Source: Sphingomonadales bacterium (GTDB lineage: Bacteria; Bacteroidota; Bacteroidia; Flavobacteriales_D; Crocinitomicaceae). From it: 64,000 nucleotides of DNA. Position numbers and translations under genes: made by a program. The stretch lies in NCBI GenBank assembly GCA_016872115.1, contig VHBC01000006.1, positions 1 to 64,000 on the forward strand, read 5' to 3'. The notes beneath the pieces are model-generated. The model did no database searches. It was not told the DNA's origin and was given only the letters and a program-made list of their open reading frames with translations. Each line of letters starts with the position of its first letter. Within the stretch, counting starts at the first letter, position 1. Below are positions 1 to 29,795 of this stretch, piece by piece.

Positions 1-657
1 CAGCACTTAGGTAAAAAAGAAAGTGAAGTTGCGCCATTTGTATCCTTATTTTGGGCTAGCATGATGATTGGCCGTTGGGCTTCGGCAGCTGGCGTATTCG
101 AAAAATCCCAACTATTCAATCGTATCATGGGTATTTTCTTGCCGCTTATCGCGTTTGGTATTTTTGCACTTGCAAATGCCATTGGTGGATCTGATATCTC
201 CTCATTTATGCCTTATATTGGCTTGGTGTTCGTTCTTATTGCTGCAGATTTCATTTCTCGAGGTAATCCTGTTCGCCAAACCATCTTGTACTCCGGTTTG
301 GGGATTACAGCCCTCGTCATTGGCATTTTTGCGACCGGTTACGTGAGTGTATTTGCATTTATTTCGGTAGGTTTATTCTGCAGCACCCTTTGGCCATGTA
401 TTTTTACACTTGGTATTGCCGGAATGGGCTCCAAAACAAATATTGCTTCCAGTTTAATGATCCTTATGATTATGGGTGGCGGTGTCGTTTCGGTTGCCCA
501 AGGTTGGCTTTCTGACGACAAATTACTCGGGATTCAACACTCTTATTGGGTTGGTGTCGTGTGCTTTGTGTACTTGATTTATTTTGCAATTCGTACTGCT
601 GCTATTCTCAAAAACAAAGGAATTCATACCTTTGATGCTGTATCAAGCGGACACTAA
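1..657 (+). CDS. Sugar permease of the major facilitator superfamily (FHS-like), 5' end missing
   Basis: Inner-membrane sugar:proton symporter, C-terminal half. The frame is open from base 1, so the gene begins outside the window and the first visible Met is internal. About 218 residues with some six hydrophobic helices remain. The motif APFVSLFWASMMIGRW matches the start of the second half of fucose/glucose-galactose permeases (FHS family). The stop overlaps the next start by one base (TAATG), so it is co-translated with the Nudix regulator. Context (GH16, GH3, SusCD) suggests it imports glucose or a short glucan. Family assignment is good; the substrate is inferred. Confidence 0.85.
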   Translation, partial: QHLGKKESEVAPFVSLFWASMMIGRWASAAGVFEKSQLFNRIMGIFLPLIAFGIFALANAIGGSDISSFMPYIGLVFVLIAADFISRGNPVRQTILYSGLGITALVIGIFATGYVSVFAFISVGLFCSTLWPCIFTLGIAGMGSKTNIASSLMILMIMGGGVVSVAQGWLSDDKLLGIQHSYWVGVVCFVYLIYFAIRTAAILKNKGIHTFDAVSSGH

Positions 658-1358
658 TGGGGGTTTATAAAATTGAATTTCACGACTTCTTTACGGCAGC
701 ATTCTCTGTCGACTGCATTATTTTTGGCTATGAAGAAGGGCAAATCAAGGCGCTATTAATCAAACGCGCCATGGAGCCCTATGATAATTATTGGGCCATT
801 CCAGGTGACTTAGTTTATCCCGACGAAGACCTACCCGTTGCTGCAGAGCGCATCCTCAAAGAACTTACTGGTCTAGACCATATCCAAATGCACCAATCAC
901 AATCGTTTGGTCATCCGAAAAGACACCCGCAGGGCCGTGTCATCACCATCGCTCATTTTGCCTTAGTCCGCATAGAAGACTTTCAGGTTAAAGCATCGTC
1001 TTGGGCAGAAGACATCAGCTGGGTTCCACTTAACGAAGTGCCATCACTTGCCTTCGACCATAACTACATCTTAGAGAGCACCTACGAAATGCTCAAGCAA
1101 AAATTACATCACGAGCCCGTTTGCTTCGATTTGCTTCCAGAAAGATTTACGCTACATGAATTCCAACAACTGTATGAATTTGCTTTTGAACAAGAATTAG
1201 ATAAAGCTAATTTCCGTAAGAAAATCAAACATATTCCATTGACACCGCTCAACGAAAAACAAAAAAACGTCAAACATCGTCCTGCAAAACTTTTCAAGTT
1301 TGATCATAAAAGCTATTTACAACAACTTGCAGCAGGTGAATACAGTTTCAAAATGTAA
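657..1358 (+). CDS. Nudix-fold transcriptional regulator (NrtR/AraR-like)
   Basis: A 233-residue protein with an N-terminal Nudix domain (about residues 10-145) and a C-terminal winged-helix part (about 155-225), the layout of NrtR and of the Bacteroides arabinose regulator AraR. The Nudix box region (G50 to G72) is degenerate: the expected REUxEE core reads E64-R65-I-L-K68-E69, so metal-binding glutamates are replaced. It probably senses a ligand rather than hydrolysing one. It overlaps the permease by one base and lies directly upstream of the SusC gene. Three matching 21-bp inverted repeats at nearby promoters are the likely binding sites. The effector is unknown; a sugar or sugar phosphate is inferred from context. 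Confidence 0.85.
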   Translation: MGVYKIEFHDFFTAAFSVDCIIFGYEEGQIKALLIKRAMEPYDNYWAIPGDLVYPDEDLPVAAERILKELTGLDHIQMHQSQSFGHPKRHPQGRVITIAHFALVRIEDFQVKASSWAEDISWVPLNEVPSLAFDHNYILESTYEMLKQKLHHEPVCFDLLPERFTLHEFQQLYEFAFEQELDKANFRKKIKHIPLTPLNEKQKNVKHRPAKLFKFDHKSYLQQLAAGEYSFKM

Positions 1359-1369
1359 AAAAAGATGAC

Positions 1370-1390
1370 TTATTGTATTTTTTACAATAA
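1370..1390 (+). promoter_or_regulatory. Operator 1, 21-bp perfect inverted repeat
   Basis: Half-sites TTATTGTA and TACAATAA are exact reverse complements separated by five T. The site begins 12 bp after the regulator's stop codon and lies between a possible -33 TTG (1373-1375) and a -7 box (1397-1404). The same design recurs at 1520-1540 and 10463-10483. Binding by the adjacent Nudix regulator is inferred. Confidence 0.7.
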
Positions 1391-1396
1391 AGTTTG

Positions 1397-1404
1397 TATC
1401 TTCG
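1397..1404 (+). promoter_or_regulatory. -7 box TATCTTCG (promoter 1)
   Basis: Matches TAnnTTyG. A TTG at 1373-1375 lies 21 bp upstream, a normal spacing for the Bacteroidota -33/-7 promoter. Operator 1 overlaps the TTG and fills most of the spacer. Transcription would start near 1408 and meet a hairpin at 1454-1479. Confidence 0.5.
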
Positions 1405-1407
1405 GGC

Positions 1408-1485
1408 ATCGCTTTCACTCATTGTCGAGCGTTACACAGGTTAATAATCAATTGAAACGGAGAGGAGTGTCTCCGTTTCTCTTTA
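1408..1485 (+). ncRNA. Possible short leader RNA or attenuated transcript
   Basis: The segment between promoter 1 and the hairpin terminator would give an RNA of about 75 nt. It has no convincing reading frame. It could be a small RNA, a premature termination product of susC transcription, or simply spacer after the regulator gene. No RNA family is recognised. Both 3' structure and promoter are visible; the existence of the transcript is inference. Confidence 0.25.
1454..1485 (+). terminator. Terminator-like hairpin between the two operators
   Basis: Perfect 10-bp stem (GAAACGGAGA / TCTCCGTTTC) with a 6-nt loop at 1454-1479, followed by TCTTTATAT. The U-tract is interrupted, so termination may be partial. 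It can end the permease-regulator transcript and also any transcript from promoter 1 before susC. Confidence 0.65.
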
Positions 1486-1519
1486 TATATTACTCTGTTT
1501 TTCAAACGCTTATTAAAAC

Positions 1520-1540
1520 TTATTGTTATTTGTACAATAA
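1520..1540 (+). promoter_or_regulatory. Operator 2, upstream of susC
   Basis: 21-bp site of the same design as operator 1: TTATTGTT, 5 bp, TACAATAA, with one mismatch in the innermost pair. It covers the -33 region of the susC promoter, which fits repression, or activation from within the promoter. Confidence 0.7.
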
Positions 1541-1553
1541 TTTGATTTTTGCT

Positions 1554-1561
1554 TATATTTA
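1554..1561 (+). promoter_or_regulatory. -7 box TATATTTA of the susC promoter
   Basis: Seven of eight positions match TAnnTTTG. A TTTG at 1529-1532 is 21 bp upstream. The start codon at 1585 follows after 23 bp. The identical octamer occurs downstream of operator 3 (10493-10500). Confidence 0.55.
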
Positions 1562-1584
1562 CCTCACTCTAAAACTAAAACAAC

Positions 1585-4500
1585 ATGATTAAAAATCTAG
1601 TCCTGGCATTACTGTGCTGTATCAGTATTGCTCAAGTCTATGGCCAGTCTGTGAGCGGAACCGTCATGAACGAGCGCTCTGAGGCCATTCCTTATGCAAA
1701 AATTACTGTCAAGAGCACCAATAAACCATTTCTTGCCGATGGGAAAGGTCTTTTTCAAGTTGTCGTGAGCAGCTTGAATACAGATACACTAGTCATCACG
1801 GCCATGGGTTATCAAAAACAAATGGTGCCCGTCCAAGGAAGGGCTAACTTAACAGTGGTCATGCTCGAGGTTTCACAAGATACCAAAGACGTTGTTGTTG
1901 TAGGATATGGTACCGCCAAATCAAAAGAACTTACAGGCGCAACCTCGAAAGTAAAAGGTGAGGACATCGAAAAAATGAACATGACCCGTATGGACCAAGC
2001 CCTACAAGGTCAAGTTTCAGGAGTTACGGTTTCAAGTAACTCTGGATCTCCGGGTGGCTCGGCAAATATTCGCATTCGAGGCCTATCTACTTTCGGAGAT
2101 AACGACCCATTGATCTTAGTTGATGGCGTCGTCTACGACTCAGAAGGTCTCAACGCGCTCAACCCTTCTGATATCAAGTCGATTAACGTCCTAAAAGATG
2201 CTACAGCAGGTATTTACGGCGTGCGTGCTGCAAATGGCGTCATTATCGTCGAAACCAAAAATGGGGCTATTAATCGCAAACCAAGCATTGAATACAATGG
2301 TTATTACGGCGTGCAGCAGACGGCTCGCAAACTGGACTTGCTTACGGCCGAAGAATACGCAGTCATCAAGAACGAAGCGTTTGCATTTGGAGGTCAAGCA
2401 ATGCCTTTTGCCAATACCAATCTTGGAACAGGAACCAACTGGCAAGACTCCGTATTTAGTTCTGCGCCTGTTCAAAGCCACAACCTTTCTTTAAATGGGG
2501 GCACCCTCAATACGCGTTATTCAATTGGTCTAGGTTATTTCAACCAAGAGGGGATAGTTGGTGCAGACAAAGCGAATTTTGGCCGCTATAACGCCCGCCT
2601 CAACTTTGCTACTGATATGTCTGAAAAACTTAAACTTAATTCGGTTTTGTTGTTTTCTTCCGATATGCGCAGCACGCTTCCTGAGAATGGCATTGGTTCC
2701 GTACTTTACAACACCATCAACGCTTTCCCCAATGAACCTGTTTACAGCAGCCCAAGCACCTTTTCTTACATGGAGGAAGTCAGTGATATCATCAATCCGA
2801 TTGCCCAAATGATGAATCAATACAATTGGAGCACTGCCAATAAATTCGTTGGAAAAGAAGAATTTATTTACGAATTCAATGAAAACTTATCGCTTACCAA
2901 TCGCTTCAATTACAATTATGCGAATGTCGATAGCAAAGTTTTCTCTCCGCTCGTTTGGTACGGAGAAGGCAAATATGCCAACACAGCAGCCAATGCCCAA
3001 TTAGAATCGCCAGAAGTAGAAATAGCCGATAGCATCTTCATCGAAAGAGGCGCAGCTGTTTACGAAGAGCGTTCTACCTTCCTGGATCTTTCATATGAAG
3101 CGTTTTTGAACTACGACAGAACCTTCAATGAACTCCATAAAATTAAAGGAACGCTTGGTGCTTCTGTTTTCGAGCGCAAAGGACAATCGCTTAATGGGGT
3201 TGCTTATGGCATTCCTAACAACTCATTAGACTACGCAGATATATCGGCGAATACAGCTCAGGGCGGCTACCTCAACAATGTCAATTCTTGGGAATTCAAA
3301 GAGCGCTTATTGTCGGCATTCATGCGGGCGGAATATGCTTACAAAGAAAAATACCTTGTCTCTGGCATCTTGCGTCGCGATGGTTCAAGCAAATTTGGAC
3401 CCAATAGCCGTTGGGGGATTTTCCCAACAATCTCTGGCGGATGGTTGCTTTCAGAAGAAGACTTTTTCAAGAGTAAATCTATTGACTACCTTAAATTGCG
3501 CGTCAGCTACGGGGTTTCTGGTAACGACCAAATTCCAAATTTTGCCTACCGCGCTTTGCTCAATGGCGAAGGTGTTTATGTTTTTGACGACCTCATTACG
3601 CAGGGTGTTGCTATTGGCCGCCCAGCCAACCCCGACCTTAAATGGGAAACGACGCGCCAGCTCAACATAGGACTGGACCTCACTTGGTTAAAAGCCATTA
3701 ATTTCACGACCAATTACTTCATCAAAAACACCAATGACCTTTTGTTCCAGCCGGATGTATCAGCACTTCTTGGTTCTTATGGCCCAGGAGGTTATCCGCC
3801 AATTATCAATGCCGGCGACGTCTCTAACAAAGGCTGGGAATTCGAGCTAGCGTATCAATCAGATCGCAAGAACATCCTTCAAACCAACCTCAATTTCAAC
3901 CTCACGACCATCAATAACAAAGTAGTAAGCGTACCTGAAGGCATTCAGTATATTCCCGGTGCGGCTTTTAGCGTGGGTGGCGATGTCGCAACGCGCTTCC
4001 AAGAAGGCTACGAAATCGGTTATTTCTTTGGATACCAAACAGCTGGTGTGTACCAAACGCAAGAAGAAATTGACAACGCAGCTGTTATCCAAGAAGGCGC
4101 AAAGCCAGGTGACCTCATTTTTGTGGACCAAAACGGTGATGGCAAAATCAATTTCTCTGACGACTCCGATAAAACTTATCTAGGTTCTGCCATTCCAGAC
4201 CTTACCATGGGCTTTGCTTTTAATTTTAAACTACATGGATTTGACCTCTCGGGCAATGTTTATGCAGCATTGGGCCAAGAAATCATCCGCAATTACGAGC
4301 GTCAACAACCTTATGCCAATCAACTTGCTTACGTCATTGACCGATGGACTGGCCCAGGATCTACCAACGAACATCCGCGCCTTACAACAGGGCCAACCAA
4401 TAATAACCTTTTCTCTGATTATTATGTTGAGGACGGATCATTTGTGCGCTTACGCAACATCCAATTTGGCTACACAGTACCAAGCACAGTATTGCGCAAA

Positions 4501-4674
4501 ATCCACGTAGAATCTTTACGTGTATATGTTGCAGCTAATAACCTTGTTACCCTTACGCGCTACATGGGCTTCGACCCGGATTTGGGCGCATCAAATGTAT
4601 TGTCTGCAGGTGTAGACTACGGAATGTATCCACAAGCGCGTTCAATTATGAGCGGTCTTCAAATCAAATTTTAA
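1585..4674 (+). CDS. susC: SusC/RagA-type TonB-dependent outer-membrane receptor
   Basis: Outer-membrane porin that imports oligosaccharides using TonB energy, together with the SusD lipoprotein that follows 10 bp later. It has 1029 residues, normal for SusC. A signal peptide ends near YGQ21. A carboxypeptidase-regulatory-like domain covers about 22-105. A plug domain (VVVVGYGTAKSKELTG, then IRIRGLSTFGDNDPLILVDG) runs to about 225, followed by a 22-strand barrel ending in an aromatic/basic C-terminus (LQIKF). The start at 1585 gives the signal peptide directly. It is first gene after operator 2, so probably controlled by the Nudix regulator. The neighbouring GH16 and GH3 enzymes suggest a beta-1,3-glucan substrate. 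Confidence 0.97.
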   Translation: MIKNLVLALLCCISIAQVYGQSVSGTVMNERSEAIPYAKITVKSTNKPFLADGKGLFQVVVSSLNTDTLVITAMGYQKQMVPVQGRANLTVVMLEVSQDTKDVVVVGYGTAKSKELTGATSKVKGEDIEKMNMTRMDQALQGQVSGVTVSSNSGSPGGSANIRIRGLSTFGDNDPLILVDGVVYDSEGLNALNPSDIKSINVLKDATAGIYGVRAANGVIIVETKNGAINRKPSIEYNGYYGVQQTARKLDLLTAEEYAVIKNEAFAFGGQAMPFANTNLGTGTNWQDSVFSSAPVQSHNLSLNGGTLNTRYSIGLGYFNQEGIVGADKANFGRYNARLNFATDMSEKLKLNSVLLFSSDMRSTLPENGIGSVLYNTINAFPNEPVYSSPSTFSYMEEVSDIINPIAQMMNQYNWSTANKFVGKEEFIYEFNENLSLTNRFNYNYANVDSKVFSPLVWYGEGKYANTAANAQLESPEVEIADSIFIERGAAVYEERSTFLDLSYEAFLNYDRTFNELHKIKGTLGASVFERKGQSLNGVAYGIPNNSLDYADISANTAQGGYLNNVNSWEFKERLLSAFMRAEYAYKEKYLVSGILRRDGSSKFGPNSRWGIFPTISGGWLLSEEDFFKSKSIDYLKLRVSYGVSGNDQIPNFAYRALLNGEGVYVFDDLITQGVAIGRPANPDLKWETTRQLNIGLDLTWLKAINFTTNYFIKNTNDLLFQPDVSALLGSYGPGGYPPIINAGDVSNKGWEFELAYQSDRKNILQTNLNFNLTTINNKVVSVPEGIQYIPGAAFSVGGDVATRFQEGYEIGYFFGYQTAGVYQTQEEIDNAAVIQEGAKPGDLIFVDQNGDGKINFSDDSDKTYLGSAIPDLTMGFAFNFKLHGFDLSGNVYAALGQEIIRNYERQQPYANQLAYVIDRWTGPGSTNEHPRLTTGPTNNNLFSDYYVEDGSFVRLRNIQFGYTVPSTVLRKIHVESLRVYVAANNLVTLTRYMGFDPDLGASNVLSAGVDYGMYPQARSIMSGLQIKF

Positions 4675-4684
4675 GAAAGTCATT

Positions 4685-6145
4685 ATGAAAAAATTCATTT
4701 ATACCCTTTTGGCGCTTGTAACCGTTGTTACTTTGCCTTCTTGTGAAAAATTCCTTTCTGTTGATCCGCCGTACGCGCAAGATGCAGAAAACTTCTTCCA
4801 AACTCCAGAAGATTTTGAGCGCGCTCTTGTAGGTGCTTATGACCTTCTGCAAGGCTCTTTTTTATCTTTGTGGATCGGCGAAATTGCCTCAGATAACGCC
4901 ATTGCCGGCGGTGAAAGCGTCAACGACACCAAAGGCCTCCACGACATCGACAATATGACACATGGGGGTGTCAACGCCGAGTTGCGCAGTTTGTTTCGCT
5001 GGAATTACACCGGTATTACACGCGTAAACTACATTCTAGAACGCCAAGACAACATCGACTTTCCTGGCAAAGCACACATTTTAGCCGAAGCTAAATTCTT
5101 GCGCGCCTACTATTATTTCGAGCTTGTCAAATTCTTCGGAGATGTGCCACTCATCATTGACAAACGCATTGGTATCGAAGAAGCGCGCAGCATTCCACGC
5201 TCACCGAAAGCTGAAGTTTACGCGCAAATTGAGGCCGACCTCATTGCAGCTGCTGCTGTTCTCAATCCAATAGCGGCGCAAAAAGGCCGTGCAACACGCG
5301 GTGCTGCCAAAGCACTACTCGGAAAAGTTTACTTGTATCAAAATAAATTCACGGAGGCCGCAGCTGTTTTAGAAGAAGTGATCGCTACTGGACAATACAG
5401 TCTTTACCAAGACTACAGCCAACTTTTTAGCGTTGCTGCAGAAGGAAATCCAGAAACTATTTTTGACATCGAATATACAGGTCTCGAAGGCGGTAGCTAT
5501 GGTTGTTTGATCTGCCTCGAAGGAAATGCCGCTGTCGGATTCCAAGGCATTCGTCAATACAACGGTCCTGTGTACGGCGATGGCAACTCTTACAACCTAC
5601 CAACCCCTGAACTTTATGCAGTATTTTCCCCTATAGATCCGCGTCGTGCTGCAACCGTACTAGACATCGAAGCATTCATTGCCGCCCAGCCTAATCCGGC
5701 GGCAATTACTTATGCCGTCGGCGCTGGTGGGCACACCGGTTATTACAACAACAAATACATCAAACGTCAAGGAGAAATTGGCCTGCCCGATAACGACTTA
5801 ACCAGCCCCGTAAATTATCGCGTTTTACGTTATGCTGACGTACTTCTGATGGCTGCCGAAGCAAATTACCAGATTGGCAATGCCTCACGGGCCACCCAAT
5901 TGGTAAATCAAATTCGTCAACGCGCTGGTATCCCCGGAGCATCAGTTAACAACATTGAAAAAGTTTATTTGGAGCGTAGATTAGAGCTCTCAGGCGAAGG
6001 CCATCGCTTTTTTGATCTGGTTCGTACCGGACAAGCCGCACAATATATCCCTGGATTTGTTGTTGGTAAGCATGAACTCTTCCCTATTCCACAAGTTGAA
6101 ATCGACTTAGCGGGTGGTAATTGGGCACAAAACCCTGGTTATTAA
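4685..6145 (+). CDS. susD: SusD/RagB-family glycan-binding lipoprotein
   Basis: Surface lipoprotein that acts as the lid of the SusC transporter and binds oligosaccharide. It has 486 residues, normal for SusD. The signal peptide ends in the lipobox LPSC with Cys20. The N-terminal TPR-like helices include AEAKFLRAYYYFELVKFFGD, typical of SusD_RagB. The C-terminus has RLELSGEGHRFFDLVRTG and LFPIPQVEI, also typical. It lies 10 bp after susC and 19 bp before the PKD lipoprotein, so it is in one transcript with both. Confidence 0.97.
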   Translation: MKKFIYTLLALVTVVTLPSCEKFLSVDPPYAQDAENFFQTPEDFERALVGAYDLLQGSFLSLWIGEIASDNAIAGGESVNDTKGLHDIDNMTHGGVNAELRSLFRWNYTGITRVNYILERQDNIDFPGKAHILAEAKFLRAYYYFELVKFFGDVPLIIDKRIGIEEARSIPRSPKAEVYAQIEADLIAAAAVLNPIAAQKGRATRGAAKALLGKVYLYQNKFTEAAAVLEEVIATGQYSLYQDYSQLFSVAAEGNPETIFDIEYTGLEGGSYGCLICLEGNAAVGFQGIRQYNGPVYGDGNSYNLPTPELYAVFSPIDPRRAATVLDIEAFIAAQPNPAAITYAVGAGGHTGYYNNKYIKRQGEIGLPDNDLTSPVNYRVLRYADVLLMAAEANYQIGNASRATQLVNQIRQRAGIPGASVNNIEKVYLERRLELSGEGHRFFDLVRTGQAAQYIPGFVVGKHELFPIPQVEIDLAGGNWAQNPGY

Positions 6146-6164
6146 TTTTTTAAATAAAAAAACC

Positions 6165-7016
6165 ATGAAAACATTATTGCTAAGCATTTTAAGTATCGGA
6201 CTTGCGCTAGTAGCCTGTCAGAAATACGAACCTAGTCTTGGGCCTGCGCCTTCTGCTGCAGATGCTCAATTTACAATGGCGCCTTCTGCGGCCAATGCCA
6301 ATATCATAGAATTGAGCGCCAGTAACCAAAACATTCAATGCGTTTGGGACTTCGGCAACGGTACCAAAGCACAAGGAGCCAACGTTACGGCAACATATCC
6401 GTATGCAGGTACTTATACCATCAAGTTGACAGTTTTTGCAAAAGGCGGTAGCCGCAGTTCTAGCCAACAAGTTACTATTGCCAACGATGACTTAGGCTTA
6501 TTGAACAATCCTTTTTATACCATGCTAACGGGCGGCGTGAGTGGCCCGGGTTACAAAGTTTGGGTTGTAGATTCTGCTGCATCGGGTCATATGGGAGTAG
6601 GGCCCGACCCAGAAAGTGCACTCGGGCCGACACCGGAATGGTGGGCTGCTGGTGCTGGCGAAAAACCAGGTTGTGGGCTTTACAACGATCAATATGTCTT
6701 TCATCTCAACGGTTTTAAGTTCGACATGATTACCAACGGAGATGTTTATGTACACAATTCAATTGCTGCCAACTTCCCTGGCGCTTTTCAAAATTTAGGT
6801 GACTTTACGGCCCCATTTGACGACCAACCCAACGAGAACTGGTTGCTCACGGAGGGGGCAGAAAACACCATCACTATTTCTGGCAATGCCTTTATGGGGT
6901 TTTTTACAGGGCCCCGCGTTTATCGTATACTTTCTATAAACGATTCCACCATGCATTTGCAGTATGGTCATCACGCCGGCGGACTCAAATGGTACCTTAA
7001 ACTCAAGACTTTATAA
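6165..7016 (+). CDS. PKD-domain surface lipoprotein of the glucan locus
   Basis: A 283-residue lipoprotein (lipobox LVAC, Cys18). A PKD domain at about 50-110 is marked by VWDFGNGTKA and YPYAGTYTIKLTV. The remaining 170 residues look like a beta-rich binding domain (aromatic motifs such as PEWWAAG and ENWLL) with no recognised catalytic residues. In laminarin loci of marine Bacteroidota a PKD lipoprotein in this position is a surface glycan-binding protein, and that role is inferred. The ATG at 6165 is preferred over an upstream ATG inside susD because it gives a clean lipoprotein signal. Confidence 0.85.
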   Translation: MKTLLLSILSIGLALVACQKYEPSLGPAPSAADAQFTMAPSAANANIIELSASNQNIQCVWDFGNGTKAQGANVTATYPYAGTYTIKLTVFAKGGSRSSSQQVTIANDDLGLLNNPFYTMLTGGVSGPGYKVWVVDSAASGHMGVGPDPESALGPTPEWWAAGAGEKPGCGLYNDQYVFHLNGFKFDMITNGDVYVHNSIAANFPGAFQNLGDFTAPFDDQPNENWLLTEGAENTITISGNAFMGFFTGPRVYRILSINDSTMHLQYGHHAGGLKWYLKLKTL

Positions 7017-7025
7017 TTCAGCACC

Positions 7026-8111
7026 ATGAAGATCATGACTTTTTTATTGCTGAGTTTAACGCTCCTAGCTTGTCAGCCAGATGAACCTAAAGCGCCAGGT
7101 CTGCCTAGCAACCTGAACACGCAACTCACCATCACAAATGGTGAAGTACATGTAATTGCTTCTGCAGATAGCGCTAATTTTTATACAGTTACCTTCTACG
7201 ACAACAACGATACCATTACGGTAGAAACACAAGACGGTGAAGCTACGCATATCTACAACGCCTCAGGTACCTACAAAATCAGAACAAGAGCACATACGCT
7301 TCAAACTTCTTATATCGAAAAGGTTGAAGAAGTGCTTATTGAAATCAGTACTGGCAACACCGGCGCACCAGCTTCCGGCTTCATCAGCCCTCTTACTTAT
7401 CCGAATATGAGTTTAGTTTGGCAAGATGAATTCAACGGCGCGAGTCTATCCTCTGACTGGACCTACGACACTGGCACTGGTAGCTGGGGTTGGGGTAACA
7501 ACGAGTTGCAATACTACAAACAAGATAATGCTGTTGTAGCTGATGGCATCCTCACCATTACTGCTAAAAACGAAAACTTCAACACCTCCAACTACACCTC
7601 AAGCCGCATCAAAACACAAGGCATCAAATCATGGAAATACGGCCGTATTGATGTTCGTGCAGCACTACCTTATGGCCAAGGCATTTGGCCAGCAATCTGG
7701 ATGCTCGGAGACAACATTACCTCAGCTGGTTGGCCTGCTTGTGGAGAAATCGACATCATGGAGCTTATCGGTGGAGCAGGTGTAAATGACCGCACTGTGC
7801 ATGGAACTGTGCATTGGAGCAACAACGGAACTCACGCACAATATGGCGGCAGTAAAACACTCCCGTCTGGGAAATTTGCGGACAATTTTCACGTATTTTC
7901 CATCACTTGGGATGCCAATTCCATTCATTGGTTGCTCGACAACGTCGCGTACCATAGCATTGACACAAGCCCTGCAGACATGGCTGAATTCAGAGAAAAA
8001 TTCTTCATCATCATGAATGTCGCTGTGGGCGGAAACTGGCCAGGATCACCAGACGCAAGCACTGTTTTTCCACAAAAAATGTATGTAGACTACGTTCGCG
8101 TTTTCCAATAA
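7026..8111 (+). CDS. GH16 endo-beta-1,3-glucanase (laminarinase-like), lipoprotein
   Basis: A 361-residue glycosidase that probably cuts beta-1,3-glucan at the cell surface. The lipobox LLAC puts the anchor at Cys16. A beta-rich domain of PKD type covers about 30-110. The GH16 domain starts near 125 (LVWQDEFNG) and contains the active-site motif GEIDIME with E241 as nucleophile, D243 as helper and E246 as acid/base. The extra Met in this motif (ExDxxE) is the form of laminarinases. It lies 9 bp after the PKD lipoprotein. Exact linkage preference cannot be told from sequence. Confidence 0.93.
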   Translation: MKIMTFLLLSLTLLACQPDEPKAPGLPSNLNTQLTITNGEVHVIASADSANFYTVTFYDNNDTITVETQDGEATHIYNASGTYKIRTRAHTLQTSYIEKVEEVLIEISTGNTGAPASGFISPLTYPNMSLVWQDEFNGASLSSDWTYDTGTGSWGWGNNELQYYKQDNAVVADGILTITAKNENFNTSNYTSSRIKTQGIKSWKYGRIDVRAALPYGQGIWPAIWMLGDNITSAGWPACGEIDIMELIGGAGVNDRTVHGTVHWSNNGTHAQYGGSKTLPSGKFADNFHVFSITWDANSIHWLLDNVAYHSIDTSPADMAEFREKFFIIMNVAVGGNWPGSPDASTVFPQKMYVDYVRVFQ

Positions 8112-8126
8112 AATTCGTTGCCAATC

Positions 8127-10427
8127 ATGAAATGTCTTTCTGCATTTGCCGTATTGCTCCTTCTTTTAGGATTTAAAAGTTCAGAAGCGCCCCATTTTAC
8201 AAATCCTTCGGACCAAGACCTAGAAGCGCTTATCGCTCAAATGAGTATCGAGGAAAAAGTTGGTCAAACTTGCCAGATAACACTTGATGCCATTCACCAA
8301 ACTGATGAAAAAGGTGGCGCATTGGCTCCTGCTCGCATTGATCAAGCTAAACTCAAAGAAGCCCTTGAAGTTTATCATATCGGTTCCGTACTTAATGTTG
8401 GCTGGCACACACTCACTCGTGAAGAATGGAAATCAATAATGACGGATATTCATGCACCTTACCTTAAGAAACAACAAAACATTCCCATTCTTTACGGTAT
8501 TGATGCCATTCACGGTGTGAATTATACCGTTGGCGGCACCTTATTTCCACAAGAAATAGGTTTGGCTGCTACCTGGAACCCCGATCTTGCACGCCAAATG
8601 GGTGAAGTTACCGCCTACGAATGCAGGGCTTCTGGCATTCCCTGGAACTTTTCTCCTGTGCTAGATCTTGGGCGACAACCGCTTTGGTCGCGCCACTTTG
8701 AAACACTGGGAGAAGACCCCGTTTTAGGTAGCCAAATGGGCGTGGCTCTGGTAGAAGGCTACCAAGGCAAAGGAGCGCAAGTTGATGAATTTCATGCTGC
8801 TGCATGCTTGAAGCACTTTGTTGGCTATAGCGCAAGTTTCTCTGGTCGCGACCGCACACCCGCTTTCATTCCTGAAAAATACATGCAAGAGCTCTATTTG
8901 CCTGCCTTTAAAGCGGCTGTAGAGAAAGGCGCCCTCACGCTTATGATTAATTCTGGTGTAGTGAATGGCATACCTGGACATGCCAATTACAACCTCCTCA
9001 CTCGAACGCTGAAAAAAGAATGGGGCTTCAAGGGTTTTGTGGTTTCTGACTGGGAAGACTTCATTATGCTGCATACCGTTCACCGCACTGCCGCCTCACT
9101 ATCAGAAGCAGCGATACAAGCCTTTAATGCTGGCGTAGATATGAGTATGGTGCCCTCCAATCCGCAATACAAAACATATTGCCAAGACATGATTAAGGCG
9201 GTAAAAGAGGGTAAAATCTCAATGGAACGTCTGGACGATGCCGTTCGAAGAATCCTTTACGTTAAAAAGCAATTAGGCCTTTTCAACAATCCGCTACCCA
9301 ACCTCGACAACTATCCGCTTTTTGGAAGCCAAAAATTCAAGGATATTGCTAAAAAAGCAGCTCTTGAATCGATCACCTTACTTAAAAACGAAGGAAACGT
9401 GCTTCCGCTAAACACCAAGCAACGCGTATTAGTAGCGGGTCCAGGAGCTGCAAATATCAACATGCTTAATGGCGCATGGACGCATACTTGGCAAGGAATG
9501 GATACAAGCTTTAACACAAAAGGCGCCCTCAATATTTATCAAGCGCTCAAATACCAACTTCCAAATGCTTCCATATCATTTGCAAAAGGGGCCGAACTTT
9601 TCCTACAAAACGACTTTGAGGCTTCGCGCTTTATTGACATTAATAATTACAAAAAAGCCCTCAAAAAAAACGACGTCATCGTCATTTGTGTAGGTGAACT
9701 ACCTTCTACCGAAAAACCAGGGGATGTCCGAAGCTTGCAACTCGATGAAAAACAAAAAGAATTAGTGCGCTTGGCAAAAGCAGCTCAAAAGAAAGTTGTT
9801 TTGGTTTTACTCGAGGCCAGACCTCGCATCATCAACGATATCGAACCACTCTGTGACGCAATTATCCAAGCATATTTACCCGGAGATCATGGCGGCATGG
9901 CTCTGGCAGAGTTGCTTTCAGGAAAGGCAGACTTTAGTGGGCGGCTTCCTTACACCTATCCACGCTACGACGGTGTCATCGAATTCTATGACCACCCGGG
10001 CAGTGTGGCACGAGCAAAATCTGGCCAATTCACCGCCTACAATCCACAATGGAATTTTGGCTTTGGGCTGTCTTATCATATGGGTGTCATCAATGGCATA
10101 CAAATGACTGCCAAAGACGAAAATAAAGGAACGTTTTCGATTGCTGTAAATGTGAACAATCCACATTTACAAGCCATTCAAATGGTAGTGCCGGTTTACC
10201 TCAGCGACCTCTATGCGAGTACCACCCCTGAAAACAAAAGATTGGTTGACTTCAATAAAGTTACCCTTCGTCCAGGCGAAAATAAAACACTTGAATTTTC
10301 ATTTGATGCCCATACTTTAAAAAGAATCAGCGCCGACGGAAAATGGCGGGCCGAAAAGGGCACATTTGAAATCATTTGTGGAGAAAATAAAGTGGTCCTA
10401 GAACTTTTTAACGACTTATTATTTTAA
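8127..10427 (+). CDS. GH3 beta-glucosidase, periplasmic
   Basis: A 766-residue glycoside hydrolase family 3 enzyme that would release glucose from oligosaccharides imported by SusCD. It has a type I signal peptide without a lipobox (cleavage near SSEA). The family 3 N-domain has ETLGEDPVLGSQM, CLKHFVGYS and the nucleophile motif VVSDWED (D308). A C-terminal alpha/beta domain and a fibronectin-III-like end (PVYLSDLYAS, LEFSFD) follow. The ATG at 8127 is preferred over a TTG nine bases upstream. Gene order SusC-SusD-PKD-GH16-GH3 is typical of laminarin loci. Confidence 0.94.
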   Translation: MKCLSAFAVLLLLLGFKSSEAPHFTNPSDQDLEALIAQMSIEEKVGQTCQITLDAIHQTDEKGGALAPARIDQAKLKEALEVYHIGSVLNVGWHTLTREEWKSIMTDIHAPYLKKQQNIPILYGIDAIHGVNYTVGGTLFPQEIGLAATWNPDLARQMGEVTAYECRASGIPWNFSPVLDLGRQPLWSRHFETLGEDPVLGSQMGVALVEGYQGKGAQVDEFHAAACLKHFVGYSASFSGRDRTPAFIPEKYMQELYLPAFKAAVEKGALTLMINSGVVNGIPGHANYNLLTRTLKKEWGFKGFVVSDWEDFIMLHTVHRTAASLSEAAIQAFNAGVDMSMVPSNPQYKTYCQDMIKAVKEGKISMERLDDAVRRILYVKKQLGLFNNPLPNLDNYPLFGSQKFKDIAKKAALESITLLKNEGNVLPLNTKQRVLVAGPGAANINMLNGAWTHTWQGMDTSFNTKGALNIYQALKYQLPNASISFAKGAELFLQNDFEASRFIDINNYKKALKKNDVIVICVGELPSTEKPGDVRSLQLDEKQKELVRLAKAAQKKVVLVLLEARPRIINDIEPLCDAIIQAYLPGDHGGMALAELLSGKADFSGRLPYTYPRYDGVIEFYDHPGSVARAKSGQFTAYNPQWNFGFGLSYHMGVINGIQMTAKDENKGTFSIAVNVNNPHLQAIQMVVPVYLSDLYASTTPENKRLVDFNKVTLRPGENKTLEFSFDAHTLKRISADGKWRAEKGTFEIICGENKVVLELFNDLLF

Positions 10428-10462
10428 CTGAAAACGAGCGCTTTAAGTGTGTTATTTTTTGC

Positions 10463-10483
10463 TTATTGTATTTTTTACTATAT
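10463..10483 (+). promoter_or_regulatory. Operator 3, upstream of the secreted CBM-like protein
   Basis: Same 21-bp layout as operators 1 and 2: TTATTGTA, five T, TACTATAT. The left half and spacer are identical to operator 1; the right half differs at two positions. It suggests that the last gene of the locus has its own promoter under the same regulator. Confidence 0.6.
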
Positions 10484-10492
10484 TTATACCAT

Positions 10493-10534: not shown

Positions 10535-11986
10535 ATGAAAAAACTGTACTTTTTGCTTTTTGCGCCAATTTTGAGCCTTTCAGCTCAAATTGAAGGCACA
10601 TGGAAATTAGCACCACAAGCTGCAGCCCTTGGCGTTGGCCCAGGATTGGGTAACATCAGCTGGTGGTCTAACAGCGCAGGTGATGTCACCACCAGAGCTT
10701 GTCTATTCGACGACTCTATTAAATTTGAAGCCAACGGCAACATGACGCATTACATGAATGGCTCAACTTGGCTAGAAGCATGGCAAGGTGCCCCAGAAGG
10801 ATGTGGCACTCCAATTGCACCACACGTTGGTGGTGCTGCCACTTACACATACGACGCTGCAGCCGGTACACTTACTGTAAATGGTTTAGGCGCTCATATT
10901 GGTTTGGCTAAAGTAATCAACGGTTCTGAAATCGCCAGCCCCGCTGCTGCTGCAAGCTCAATTACCTATGACGTTGCTATCTCTAACGGAGGCAACACAC
11001 TTACCGCTGACATCAACTTTGGTCCAGGGTGGTGGCGTTTTGTTTACCAACGTACGGTTCCAATTGCGGTTCAAGATTATAACGTTACATTCCGTGTAGA
11101 CATGTCACAATACGCAGGTTCTTTAGCCGGTGGTATGTTCGTTAACGGTACGTTTAACGGCTGGTGTGGTACTTGTAACCCGATGACAGATCAAGGTAAT
11201 GGTTCTTGGGCCGTAACTCTTCCTTTGCCTCCAGGTGCTATTGAATACAAATTCACAATTGACGGCTGGAATGCACAAGAAGAGTTTGCCGGTGGTGAGT
11301 CTTGTACAGTAAGTTCAGGTGGTTTTACCAATCGTGCTCATACAGTTACTAGTGATATCACTTTACCAAATGTATGTTTTGCAAGTTGTGATGCCTGCAC
11401 AAACGACATTACTTTCGCGGTTGACATGAATGACTACGTAAACGGTGGTGGTTCTACTACAGCAGGCGTATTCTTGAATGGTACTTTCAACGGCTGGTGC
11501 GGTACTTGTACACCAATGGCAGACGCGAATGGTGATAACGTATGGGATGTAACCGTCCCACTTACTGCAGGAGCAATCGAATACAAATTCACCGTTGATG
11601 GCTGGAACGTTTCTGAGCAATTTGTTGGTGGTGAGTCTTGTACGGTAACTAACGGTGGTTTCACTAACCGTGCTTACACAGTAACTACAGCCGCAACCAT
11701 TGGCGAGGTTTGTTGGGAAAGTTGTGATGATTGCACAACTGGAATTGAAGAACTTAACAACACTGTTACGCTTTATCCGAACCCAGTAAACACAATTATG
11801 ACTGTTAAAGCAACTGACGCAATGCAACAAATCCGCATTCTTGACCTTACTGGTAAAGTAGTTGCAACATTTGTTGGCAATGGCTTAACACAAGAAATCA
11901 ATGTAGAGAGCCTCAAAGCAGGTATCTACACTATCCAAATCGCAACAGCAGCTGGTAACAGCAGCAAGCAATTTGTGAAGAAATAA
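10535..11986 (+). CDS. T9SS-secreted protein with two Cys-rich CBM-like modules
   Basis: A 483-residue secreted protein, probably a glucan-binding protein. It has a signal peptide (ends LSLSAQ), an N-terminal beta-rich, Trp-rich domain (about 19-180; IEGTWKLAP, NISWWSNSAG, GWWRFVYQRT), and two tandem repeats of about 105 residues (about 182-287 and 288-398). Each repeat has the pattern VNGTFNGWCGTC, IEYKFTxDGWN, GGESCTV and a C-terminal SCxxC pair, resembling the CBM48/E-set glycogen-binding fold. A type A T9SS sorting domain closes it (VTLYPNPVN to GNSSKQFVKK). No catalytic motif is seen. It has its own operator and promoter. The CBM48-like reading is inference from local motifs. Confidence 0.85.
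   Translation: MKKLYFLLFAPILSLSAQIEGTWKLAPQAAALGVGPGLGNISWWSNSAGDVTTRACLFDDSIKFEANGNMTHYMNGSTWLEAWQGAPEGCGTPIAPHVGGAATYTYDAAAGTLTVNGLGAHIGLAKVINGSEIASPAAAASSITYDVAISNGGNTLTADINFGPGWWRFVYQRTVPIAVQDYNVTFRVDMSQYAGSLAGGMFVNGTFNGWCGTCNPMTDQGNGSWAVTLPLPPGAIEYKFTIDGWNAQEEFAGGESCTVSSGGFTNRAHTVTSDITLPNVCFASCDACTNDITFAVDMNDYVNGGGSTTAGVFLNGTFNGWCGTCTPMADANGDNVWDVTVPLTAGAIEYKFTVDGWNVSEQFVGGESCTVTNGGFTNRAYTVTTAATIGEVCWESCDDCTTGIEELNNTVTLYPNPVNTIMTVKATDAMQQIRILDLTGKVVATFVGNGLTQEINVESLKAGIYTIQIATAAGNSSKQFVKK
11083..11728 (+). repeat. Tandem in-gene duplication of a 105-residue module
   Basis: Two copies of about 320 bp, with near-identical stretches such as those coding NGTFNGWCGTC (around 11150 and 11480) and GGESCT (around 11295 and 11630). 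Synonymous differences between copies show the duplication is not very recent. Confidence 0.8.
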
Positions 11987-18285: not shown

Positions 18286-18711
18286 ATGGCCTATCTCCAT
18301 TTGCTCAGCAACCACTTGCCCATATTAGGAACTTTATTTGGTGTTTTACTTTTGGCTATTGCTTTTTTCAAACCACAACTTCAGACAACCATTAGTGCTT
18401 ACATCCTACTTGTAATTAGTGGCATTGGTGGGATGGTTGCTTATTTCAGCGGGGATAATGCTGAAGAACACGTCGAGCATATCGGAGGCATCTCTCATAA
18501 AGTCATTCACCTCCATGAAGAAATGGCCGAGAACACATTGTTTTTCATATTTCTGCTTACCGCTATTGCCATAGTTGGACTTTGGGCAGAACGCGCGCAA
18601 TGGCCTAGCAGCAAAAAAATTGCTTTAGGCGCCTTGGTTATCGGCATTATTGCATTCGTATTATTTGCTTTCACGGGCTATCTTGGAGGTCATATCCGAC
18701 ATGACGCCTAA
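18286..18711 (+). CDS. Conserved four-helix membrane protein
   Basis: 141 residues with four predicted helices and a His-rich loop (NAEEHVEHIGGISHKVIHLHEEMAE). The start MAYLHLLSNHLPILGTLFG resembles small Bacteroidota membrane proteins often found near oxidase genes. I do not recognise a characterised family. It follows DUF420 by 41 bp and overlaps the dCMP deaminase by 11 bp. A link to respiration is suggested only by position and the histidines. Confidence 0.75.
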   Translation: MAYLHLLSNHLPILGTLFGVLLLAIAFFKPQLQTTISAYILLVISGIGGMVAYFSGDNAEEHVEHIGGISHKVIHLHEEMAENTLFFIFLLTAIAIVGLWAERAQWPSSKKIALGALVIGIIAFVLFAFTGYLGGHIRHDA

Positions 18712-29778: not shown

Positions 29779-29795
29779 CCAATTTATTGTCAATG

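Follow-up and report, generated by a model that had tools for sequence, protein, structure and literature searches.

Glucans such as laminarin make up a large share of aquatic carbon, and we know of no switch described for the glucan-eating genes of small planktonic Bacteroidota of the Crocinitomicaceae. How such genes might be controlled is the question raised by a locus at the start of contig VHBC01000006.1 (contig C6, assembly GCA_016872115.1), which belongs to a small aquatic bacterium of this family; the window analyzed here is the first 64,000 nucleotides of that contig. A single narrow literature search on Nudix regulators in connection with SusC or polysaccharide utilization loci (PULs) returned Bacteroides work only, and linking Nudix with laminarin yielded only unrelated plant work. 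The locus comprises the following genes:

1..657, plus strand: MFS transporter of the glucose/galactose type, C-terminal 218 aa (NCBIfam gluP, E 2.9e-18, under the model cut-off)
657..1358, plus strand: Nudix-fold regulator of the NrtR/AraR type, 233 aa (Pfam NUDIX, NrtR_WHD, AraR_C)
1585..4674, plus strand: susC, TonB-linked outer-membrane transporter (NCBIfam OMP_RagA_SusC, 783.7 bits, cut-off 368)
4685..6145, plus strand: susD, glycan-binding lipoprotein (Pfam SusD_RagB, E 6.8e-32)
6165..7016, plus strand: PKD-domain protein (Pfam PKD, E 3.3e-11)
7026..8111, plus strand: GH16 glucanase (Pfam Glyco_hydro_16, E 6e-24; motif EIDIME in the translation)
8127..10427, plus strand: GH3 enzyme (Pfam GH3 N, GH3 C and Fn3-like; NCBIfam BglX 368.7 bits, short of the cut-off of 666)
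10535..11986, plus strand: secreted protein; two CBM48-like stretches, type IX sorting tail (Pfam AMPK1_CBM, CBM_48, Por_Secre_tail)

With susC and susD adjacent and accompanied by carbohydrate enzymes, the locus has the composition of a PUL. The GH3 enzyme is probably a beta-glucosidase, judging from its domains, and since the NCBIfam matches of both hydrolases stay below their cut-offs, beta-glucan is given here as the predicted substrate. The transporter gene is truncated by the start of contig C6, its 5' part lying at the end of contig C26, and its stop codon is overlapped by the ATG of the regulator gene. No arabinose catabolic gene occurs among the eight locus genes scanned (MFS, regulator, susC, susD, PKD, GH16, GH3, and CBM); this gene content and an altered recognition helix (see below) exclude an arabinose regulator. 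The initial annotation had seen neither hybrid two-component systems (HTCS) nor anti-sigma/ECF pairs, which holds for the whole genome with respect to the two Pfam domains searched, Y_Y_Y (HTCS, PF07495) and FecR (PF04773), both with 0 matches at E 0.001.

According to profile searches and its structural model, the regulator is an NrtR/AraR-type protein combining a Nudix domain with a winged helix-turn-helix. An N-terminal NUDIX domain (47.8 bits, cut-off 21.1) is followed by a C-terminal winged helix (NrtR_WHD 70.4 bits, cut-off 27; AraR_C 40.5 bits, cut-off 23.8), the closest PDB sequence is BtAraR (5bs6, E 4.1e-48), and the same entry is the top Foldseek match (TM 0.82) of the AF2 model (pLDDT 83.3). 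The Nudix catalytic motif GX5EX7REUXEEXGU (PMC4666351) appears degenerate by eye at residues 50-73, where REUXEE reads ERILKE. The sugar contacts R34, R86, H131, and F129 of BtAraR correspond to R37, R89, H135, and F133, assuming a numbering offset of 3 (PMC4666351), and are invariant in 17 orthologs. Elsewhere in the pocket G48 is replaced by D51, F49 by L52, and G89 by Q92, so that the ligand is not deducible from the pocket. The recognition helix DKANFRKK is invariant in all 17 aligned orthologs. Among the DNA contacts of BtAraR, K179, N181, K184, and R205 are kept, R180 corresponds to Ala184 and K204 to His207; the full set of six (K179, R180, N181, K184, K204, R205) that marks AraR orthologs is thus not conserved.

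Four candidate operators can be assigned to this protein:

1370..1390, no strand: operator 1 (op1), 16 of 16 positions; precedes a small-RNA candidate
1520..1540, no strand: operator 2 (op2), 15 of 16 positions; precedes susC
10463..10483, no strand: operator 3 (op3), 14 of 16 positions; right arm overlaps a -7-like box
C26:18339-18359, strand not given: fourth operator, of the transporter-regulator operon (TTATTGTAATTTGGACCAAAA, 3 mismatches)

The first three had been proposed by the initial annotation as inverted repeats of one design, and a scan with TTATTGT-N7-ACAATAA recovers them all, op1 and op2 with 0 mismatches and op3 with 2 mismatches that fall in its right arm. The accompanying statement that the design is found nowhere else in the window is true of the two exact copies; op3 is equaled by positions 29784 and 46144, likewise with 2 mismatches. 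Allowing up to 3 mismatches gives 12 matches in the window where shuffling predicts 8.07, and 12 shuffled versions out of 100 have 12 or more, which makes op3 unremarkable on sequence alone. It is credible because relatives have a site before their CBM gene as well, with a right arm that is asymmetric in the same way (consensus TTATTGTATTTtTTACTATAT, 29 sites). When the 2.22-Mb genome is scanned with the 16-position form of the operator, TTATTGTA-N5-TACAATAA, the top two matches are op1 and op2, and four places have 2 mismatches, namely op3, C10:11703, C11:40423, and C30:9025; the last three all lie inside ORFs and were rejected as additional regulon members. The repeats had further been placed at the promoters of the regulator, susC, and the CBM gene. 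This is correct for the latter two, but op1 is located downstream of the regulator gene (657-1358, plus strand) and not at its own promoter, and the site of its operon is the one on C26, 268 bp from the contig end and immediately upstream of the transporter start codon. The sites display the operator traits of the NrtR/AraR family: a palindrome with a TGT-N7-ACA core before target genes (register compared with crystal DNA, PMC4666351).

Of 314 related loci, the best 80 (1.26 Mb in total) were searched with up to two mismatches allowed: the 16-position pattern turned up 182 times and its reversed form once, and 77 of the 80 loci contain at least one site. Across 200 genomes of the family, sites with at most one mismatch average 2.2 where the regulator is present (n = 76; control 0.2) and 0.52 where it is absent (n = 124; control 0.52), a difference whose Mann-Whitney p of 4e-19 is indicative only, because the genomes are related. 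The class with the regulator is defined by at least 58% identity, a threshold set by us, and includes broken or partial genes in two genomes (G065, G149); seven of its 76 members have no site with at most one mismatch. The 182-to-1 contrast together with this co-occurrence rules out chance repeats. Two of the checks suggested by the initial annotation, a genome-wide scan and a comparison of orthologous upstream regions, bore out its proposal: good sites occur in small numbers per genome, go with the regulator, and are kept in orthologous loci before MFS, susC, CBM, or GH3 genes. Judged by this distribution, the inverted repeats are part of a conserved regulon.

The link between protein and sites is computational, and the operators might be bound by another transcription factor encoded elsewhere, with the Nudix protein a bystander. 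Such a reading could draw on more distant loci that carry a regulator homolog but no nearby site: of 20 examined, eight (L155, L156, L158, L161, L166, L169, L170, and L172) lack any TTGT-N7-ACAA up to 700 bp away from the regulator; the helix reads DKANFRKK in four of these, and L157, with the same helix, combines one TTGT with one GTGT-type site. A site with at most one mismatch is also present in 45 of the 124 genomes without a regulator of at least 58% identity, yet this is not above the control. In other families of the order, TTGT-N7-ACAA is found near the gene in 7/7 loci with DKGNFRKK regulators and 3/4 loci with DTRNFRKK regulators. We consider a bystander role very unlikely, since the sites follow the regulator over 200 genomes and across the layouts MFS-REG, GH3-REG, and divergent CBM-REG, their geometry is identical to that of the BtAraR operator, and the two paralogs differ both in the outer base of the core and in the recognition helix.

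The paralog in question adjoins a maltose-type operon and has the helix residues of BtAraR, whose operator in crystal DNA is GTGT-N7-ACAC (PMC4666351). Its helix reads DKRNFRRK in 21/21 loci, of which 19 contain GTGT-N7-ACAC and none TTGT-N7-ACAA. These operators were located by a core-pattern search; most of them escaped a palindrome search requiring complete 8-bp arms, because their arms are short. The glucan-locus regulator has DKANFRKK in 76 of the best 80 of 314 loci, and NKANFRKK in three of the remaining four. Core base and helix thus change together between the two paralogs. Taken together, the AraR-related Nudix protein very probably controls the glucan gene cluster via matching DNA sites.

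Near the operators in the window lie boxes resembling the -7 consensus TAnnTTTG (PMC7366714):

1397..1404, plus strand: op1 promoter, -7-like box TATCTTCG at +27 relative to op1
1554..1561, plus strand: susC promoter, -7-like box TATATTTA at +34 relative to op2
10479..10486, plus strand: CBM-gene promoter, -7-like box TATATTTA; more candidates at +30 and +36

Most classes of site keep a fixed distance to such a box, with preferred spacings before susC, CBM, GH3, and the RNA candidate. In relatives, the box follows op1-class sites at +27 in 13/26 cases and at +25 in the other 13, and CBM-class sites at +16 in 27/29. No fixed-distance box was found downstream of the MFS-class sites (n = 26), 23 of which have one inside the operator. 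We infer that an NrtR/AraR-type repressor, sharing an operon with a glucose/galactose-type transporter, would bind the 21-bp operators as a dimer and thereby control four units: the transporter-regulator operon, the small-RNA candidate, the susCD-PKD-GH16-GH3 operon, and the secreted CBM gene. In the absence of a sugar ligand it would keep RNA polymerase from contacting the promoter, and a cytoplasmic sugar derived from the glucan, for which glucose is a guess, would make it let go. We hold this explanation as a whole to be highly probable. The sign of control is not readable from sequence, and many susC-class sites lie farther upstream of the box (+33/+34) than other classes, as might be expected of an activator. 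Activation nevertheless seems improbable, as op1 and GH3-class sites overlap the presumed -33 region, op3 overlaps the -7-like box, and L-arabinose frees BtAraR from its operator (PMC4666351).

Besides protein-coding genes, the repressor might govern an RNA encoded behind op1:

1408..1484, plus strand: candidate small RNA of ~77 nt, start placed according to the -7 box
1454..1479, plus strand: terminator-like stem-loop of 10 bp, then a T-rich tail (terminator scan; also listed on the minus strand)

Because a -7-like box, a conserved element of ~77 nt, and a terminator come after it, op1 probably drives a small RNA. The element has a folding z of -2.55, and a covariance model (R1) gives a strong match in 13 of 61 genus genomes, one in each; a 14th match (G136, E 0.0017) was judged to be terminator-like background, as were all but six of the E 0.01 matches that a second model (R2) gave in 44/61 genomes, these background matches scoring 30-41 bits. 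An Rfam scan of 1300-1600 brought up five matches (E 2.2 to 7.5), none of them anywhere near its gathering score. Clade alignments were built from loci in which susC lies no more than 400 bp from the regulator, leaving out L085 and others without susC at that distance, and omit the identical rows L077, L090, and L094 in A2 and A3. Alternatively, op1 and the terminator might merely form the end of the transporter-regulator operon, serving as a roadblock or a second susC promoter with no independent small RNA, which we regard as a serious possibility although the less probable one. A terminator is required at this place anyway, and covariation is weak, with one double change per clade. By eye, a terminator-like hairpin follows the regulator in L124 and L130, where op1 is missing, and the susC leader of L125, L129, and L139 contains a hairpin that lacks a T-run, which makes a role in cis possible. 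Conservation extends to the susC leader (1541-1584) as well (0.82-0.91 identity). Pairing of the RNA with start regions of locus genes in 15 of 27 loci revealed no conserved or convincing cis target: pairing with the PKD gene (z -1.0 to -3.0) occurs in 9/9 clade-1 loci, in a stretch overlapping the susD end, and is absent in six clade-2 loci, and pairing with susC reaches z <= -2 in 3/15 loci. A separate RNA is favored by the -7-like box at fixed distance behind op1 in 26/26 relatives, and by identities to nine relatives of 0.87-0.94 in 1408-1484 and 0.93-1.00 in the unpaired stretch 1437-1451, as against 0.30-0.48 at fourfold sites of the regulator and 0.32-0.79 in the spacer 1490-1517. Moreover, two clades differing in sequence have the layout of hairpin, unpaired stretch, and terminator in common.

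A more far-reaching reading joins two proposals, and its chances seem to us slightly short of even: one sugar-responsive Nudix repressor would run a complete glucan regulon including its own small RNA, coupling uptake to a post-transcriptional signal, and a two-residue helix switch (K-R versus K-A, K-G, or T-R, BtAraR positions 179-180) would set GTGT versus TTGT and so separate the glucan and maltose regulators in one cell. Three things make the locus useful: a regulon open to experimental test, found in a genome where no HTCS sensors were detected; two paralogs with different operators, suited to studies of protein-DNA specificity; and a candidate small RNA that would respond to the same switch as the glucan genes.

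The closest known system is AraR (BT0354) of B. thetaiotaomicron, which shares the domains and fold, the 21-bp operator register, the sugar-contacting Arg/Arg/His, and a predicted control of SusCD loci and sugar catabolism (PMC4666351). The initial annotation expected Nudix control of a beta-glucan locus to extend this precedent. A glucan regulon is supported; Nudix control of SusCD loci as such is not new, because predictions already place arabinan PULs under BtAraR, whose binding was demonstrated at two promoters (PMC4666351, PMC3878776). Unlike AraR, to which it is 36-39% identical in Foldseek alignments, the regulator is associated with a TTGT instead of a GTGT core, has Ala in place of the intercalating Arg180 and D/L/Q in place of G48/F49/G89 in the pocket, and is linked to a GH16/GH3 locus, not to arabinose genes, in a genome where the Y_Y_Y search found no HTCS sensor domain. 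XylR (BT0791) of B. thetaiotaomicron belongs to the same sugar-responsive NrtR branch in Bacteroidetes (PMC4666351, PMC3878776), but is the predicted regulator of a xylose operon. NrtR of Shewanella oneidensis likewise joins Nudix and winged-helix domains (Foldseek TM 0.73 to 3gz6), but it is 28% identical, acts in NAD metabolism, and responds to ADP-ribose (PMC4666351). The RNA candidate resembles FopS (~65-70 nt) and GibS of B. thetaiotaomicron, short intergenic RNAs with an unpaired region and an intrinsic terminator, of which FopS represses susC translation in PULs (PMC11697453, PMC7366714). FopS, which is reported to be deposited in Rfam, forms a family of 14 members, whereas the candidate has one strong match per genome, and in contrast to FopS and GibS it sits behind an operator of the PUL's own regulator.

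The regulator gene, which encodes an NrtR/AraR-type Nudix-fold protein, overlaps with its start codon the stop of a glucose/galactose-type MFS gene, the first part of which is absent from the window's contig:

657-1358, forward strand: regulator, 233 amino acids, with NUDIX, NrtR_WHD and AraR_C domains, all over their cut-offs

Among solved structures, AraR of Bacteroides thetaiotaomicron (BtAraR) is the closest to it, both by sequence (E 4.1e-48) and by structure comparison of a model with a mean pLDDT of 83.3 (TM 0.82). On its 3' side follow susC, susD, genes for a PKD protein, a GH16 and a GH3 enzyme, and a gene whose secreted product combines a type IX tail with CBM48-like domains, a gene content that makes a beta-1,3-glucan such as laminarin the likely substrate of the locus. 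The initial annotation had stated that neither a hybrid two-component system (HTCS) nor an anti-sigma/ECF pair is present; consistently, a domain search of the genome for two regulator types gave no match to either the HTCS domain Y_Y_Y or FecR.

The pattern TTATTGT-N7-ACAATAA fits 1370-1390 and 1520-1540 exactly, and 10463-10483 deviates from it at two positions, which bears out the proposed three inverted repeats of one design. With up to three mismatches, the window contains 12 matches vs 8.07 expected, and site 10463-10483 is therefore unremarkable by sequence alone. In the whole genome (2,220,027 bases, 65 contigs, the window being C6:1-64000), a 16-position form of the pattern with up to three mismatches yielded 45 sites, compared with 19 for its reverse, and the two best matches both lie within the window. 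Four sites have two mismatches, among them 10463; the other three were rejected as regulon members, all being located inside ORFs. Outside the window, a weaker predicted operator, TTATTGTAATTTGGACCAAAA, is situated at positions 18339-18359 of another contig of this genome (C26:18339-18359), immediately upstream of a transporter start codon, and this contig terminates at 18627 within the beginning of the transporter gene. Relatives with both parts on one contig have the gene order site, MFS, regulator, and in the closest of them the pre-MFS site scores just 13/16. The three sites first described stand, but the regulon is larger than noted, with the C26 site as a fourth.

A profile search of genome contigs with an alignment of 17 orthologs retrieved 314 relatives, of which the best 80 loci were used (1,261,371 bases). 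Most of them are titled as Flavobacteriales, Crocinitomicaceae, Cryomorphaceae or Fluviicola; some MAGs carry other names (Polynucleobacter in one case). Here 26 sites match the pattern exactly, 78 with one mismatch and 78 with two, vs 0, 0 and 1 for the reversed control. At least one site with up to two mismatches is present in 77/80 loci and at least two in 60/80; none was detected in L107, L146 and L150. By nearest annotated gene, the 182 sites fall to susC (40), CBM (29), the position of the first operator (op1; 26), MFS (26) and GH3 (18), and 43 have no annotated gene in reach. Among 200 genomes of the family, the 76 with a regulator (at least 58% identity) contain 167 sites with at most one mismatch vs 15 control matches, and 69 of them have at least one such site; the 124 others contain 64 vs 64. 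Because the genomes are related, the p value for the difference between genomes with and without the regulator (Mann-Whitney, 4e-19) is only indicative. The regulon of a Nudix regulator proposed in the initial annotation is well supported by these counts, since the sites track the regulator. In L054, L111 and L121, MFS and regulator are kept and CBM- and GH16-like genes replace susCD behind the same operator. L058 (L116) and L158 have two regulator copies each, convergent in one and tandem in the other.

The available text of PMC7366714 gives TAnnTTTG as the Bacteroidetes -7 consensus. Similar boxes follow op1-class sites at +27 (13/26) or +25 (13/26), CBM-class sites at +16 (27/29), GH3-class sites (n=18) at +25 (10) or +26 (5), and the 40 susC-class sites at +34 (25), +33 (10), +23 (12) and +22 (7), with double counting possible. 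The 26 MFS-class sites show no preferred distance, apart from a match within the operator itself in 23. The box at +16 would explain why CBM-class sites keep their odd right arm ACTATAT. Promoter occlusion would be the simplest mode of action.

Between the first two operators lie three further features:

1397-1404: -7-like box
about 1408-1484: RNA candidate element
1454-1479: terminator-like stem

The layout of operator, element, terminator and second operator is found in 14/14 rows of one clade (window included) and 13/13 of a second. Compared with nine first-clade relatives, identity is 0.87-0.94 in the element, 0.95-1.00 in the operators and 0.82-0.91 in the likewise conserved susC leader, vs 0.30-0.48 at fourfold sites of the regulator gene and 0.32-0.79 in spacer 1490-1517. 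Despite different sequences, both clades have a hairpin at the 5' end, an unpaired region and then the terminator, with slight covariation. Among 61 genus genomes, covariance model R1 has strong matches in 13, once each (E <= 4.2e-13), and R2 in six (E <= 2.5e-14); at least 9 of the 13 and at least 4 of the six adjoin the regulator. A small RNA is probably among the regulon targets; a search for its own target in the start regions of the locus, covering 15 of 27 loci, found no conserved one. Small RNAs acting on PULs are known from Bacteroides, according to the accessible part of PMC11697453. L125, L129 and L139 form a third group within the genus. They have a single operator, and their long susC leader contains a strong hairpin that lacks a T-run and may be a related cis element.

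The window's genome encodes a paralog with 42% identity to the regulator and with NrtR_WHD, AraR_C and NUDIX domains:

L018:4643-5398 (contig C19), genes to about 14252: second regulator of the NrtR/AraR type, in divergent orientation to a maltose-type run

The run is so labelled because of its domains (alpha-amylase (GH13), MFS, HAD-hydrolase, GH65 and secreted alpha-amylase (GH13)); its first gene has a BadF ATPase family match slightly under cut-off. GTGT-N7-ACAC occurs 29 bases upstream of the paralog's start and likewise before the paralog in 19/21 loci of this type, TTGT-N7-ACAA in 0/21, and the paralog helix is DKRNFRRK in 21/21. The regulator helix is DKANFRKK in 17/17 aligned orthologs and 76/80 loci, with NKANFRKK in three of the remaining four. 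In the tree, the maltose group (99/97) stands apart from the window's group (100/100), which also takes in three rows from a different family. In other families of the order, TTGT-N7-ACAA lies near DKGNFRKK regulators in 7/7 loci and near DTRNFRKK regulators in 3/4. Against a match of helix and operator count the absence of TTGT-N7-ACAA within 700 bp in 8/20 distant loci (four of these eight with DKANFRKK), the presence of both the TTGT and the GTGT kind of site in L157 (DKANFRKK) and of neither in the two DKRNFRKK loci. In L159, L160, L162-L165 and L173, from another family, a DKGNFRKK regulator is divergent from CBM-like genes, with GH16 near some, and TTGT-N7-ACAA lies 84-143 bp before it; the regulon therefore seems to reach beyond the window's family.

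A search of the open-access literature on Nudix, polysaccharide utilization and SusC regulators gave two papers, PMC4666351 (on AraR) and PMC3878776; nothing related was found for Nudix and laminarin, nothing on point among the best 10 of 35 matches for sRNA, PUL, Flavobacteri and laminarin, and, among the matches listed, nothing nearer than AraR-type regulators in the wider literature. The accessible text of PMC5507952 has no bearing on the window's regulator.

For BtAraR, the available text of PMC4666351 describes the roles of pocket residues Arg34, Arg86, His131, Phe129, Gly48, Phe49 and Gly89. We assumed a numbering offset of 3, because each named residue then lands on its letter. The first four correspond to Arg37, Arg89, His135 and Phe133 of the regulator, whereas Gly48, Phe49 and Gly89 are replaced by Asp51, Leu52 and Gln92, respectively, all invariant in the 17 orthologs. 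These residues are consistent with a sugar ligand other than arabinose; our guess is glucose, which the linked transporter would import. In the BtAraR-DNA crystal, as described in the same text, Lys179 contacts the first G of GTGT-N7-ACAC and Arg180 is wedged into the next step. The core of window-type sites is in the same register but reads TTGT-N7-ACAA, and Arg180 is replaced by Ala in DKANFRKK. The window's regulator is thus a variant of the AraR type; its operator differs from that of BtAraR, and its target is very probably a glucan locus.
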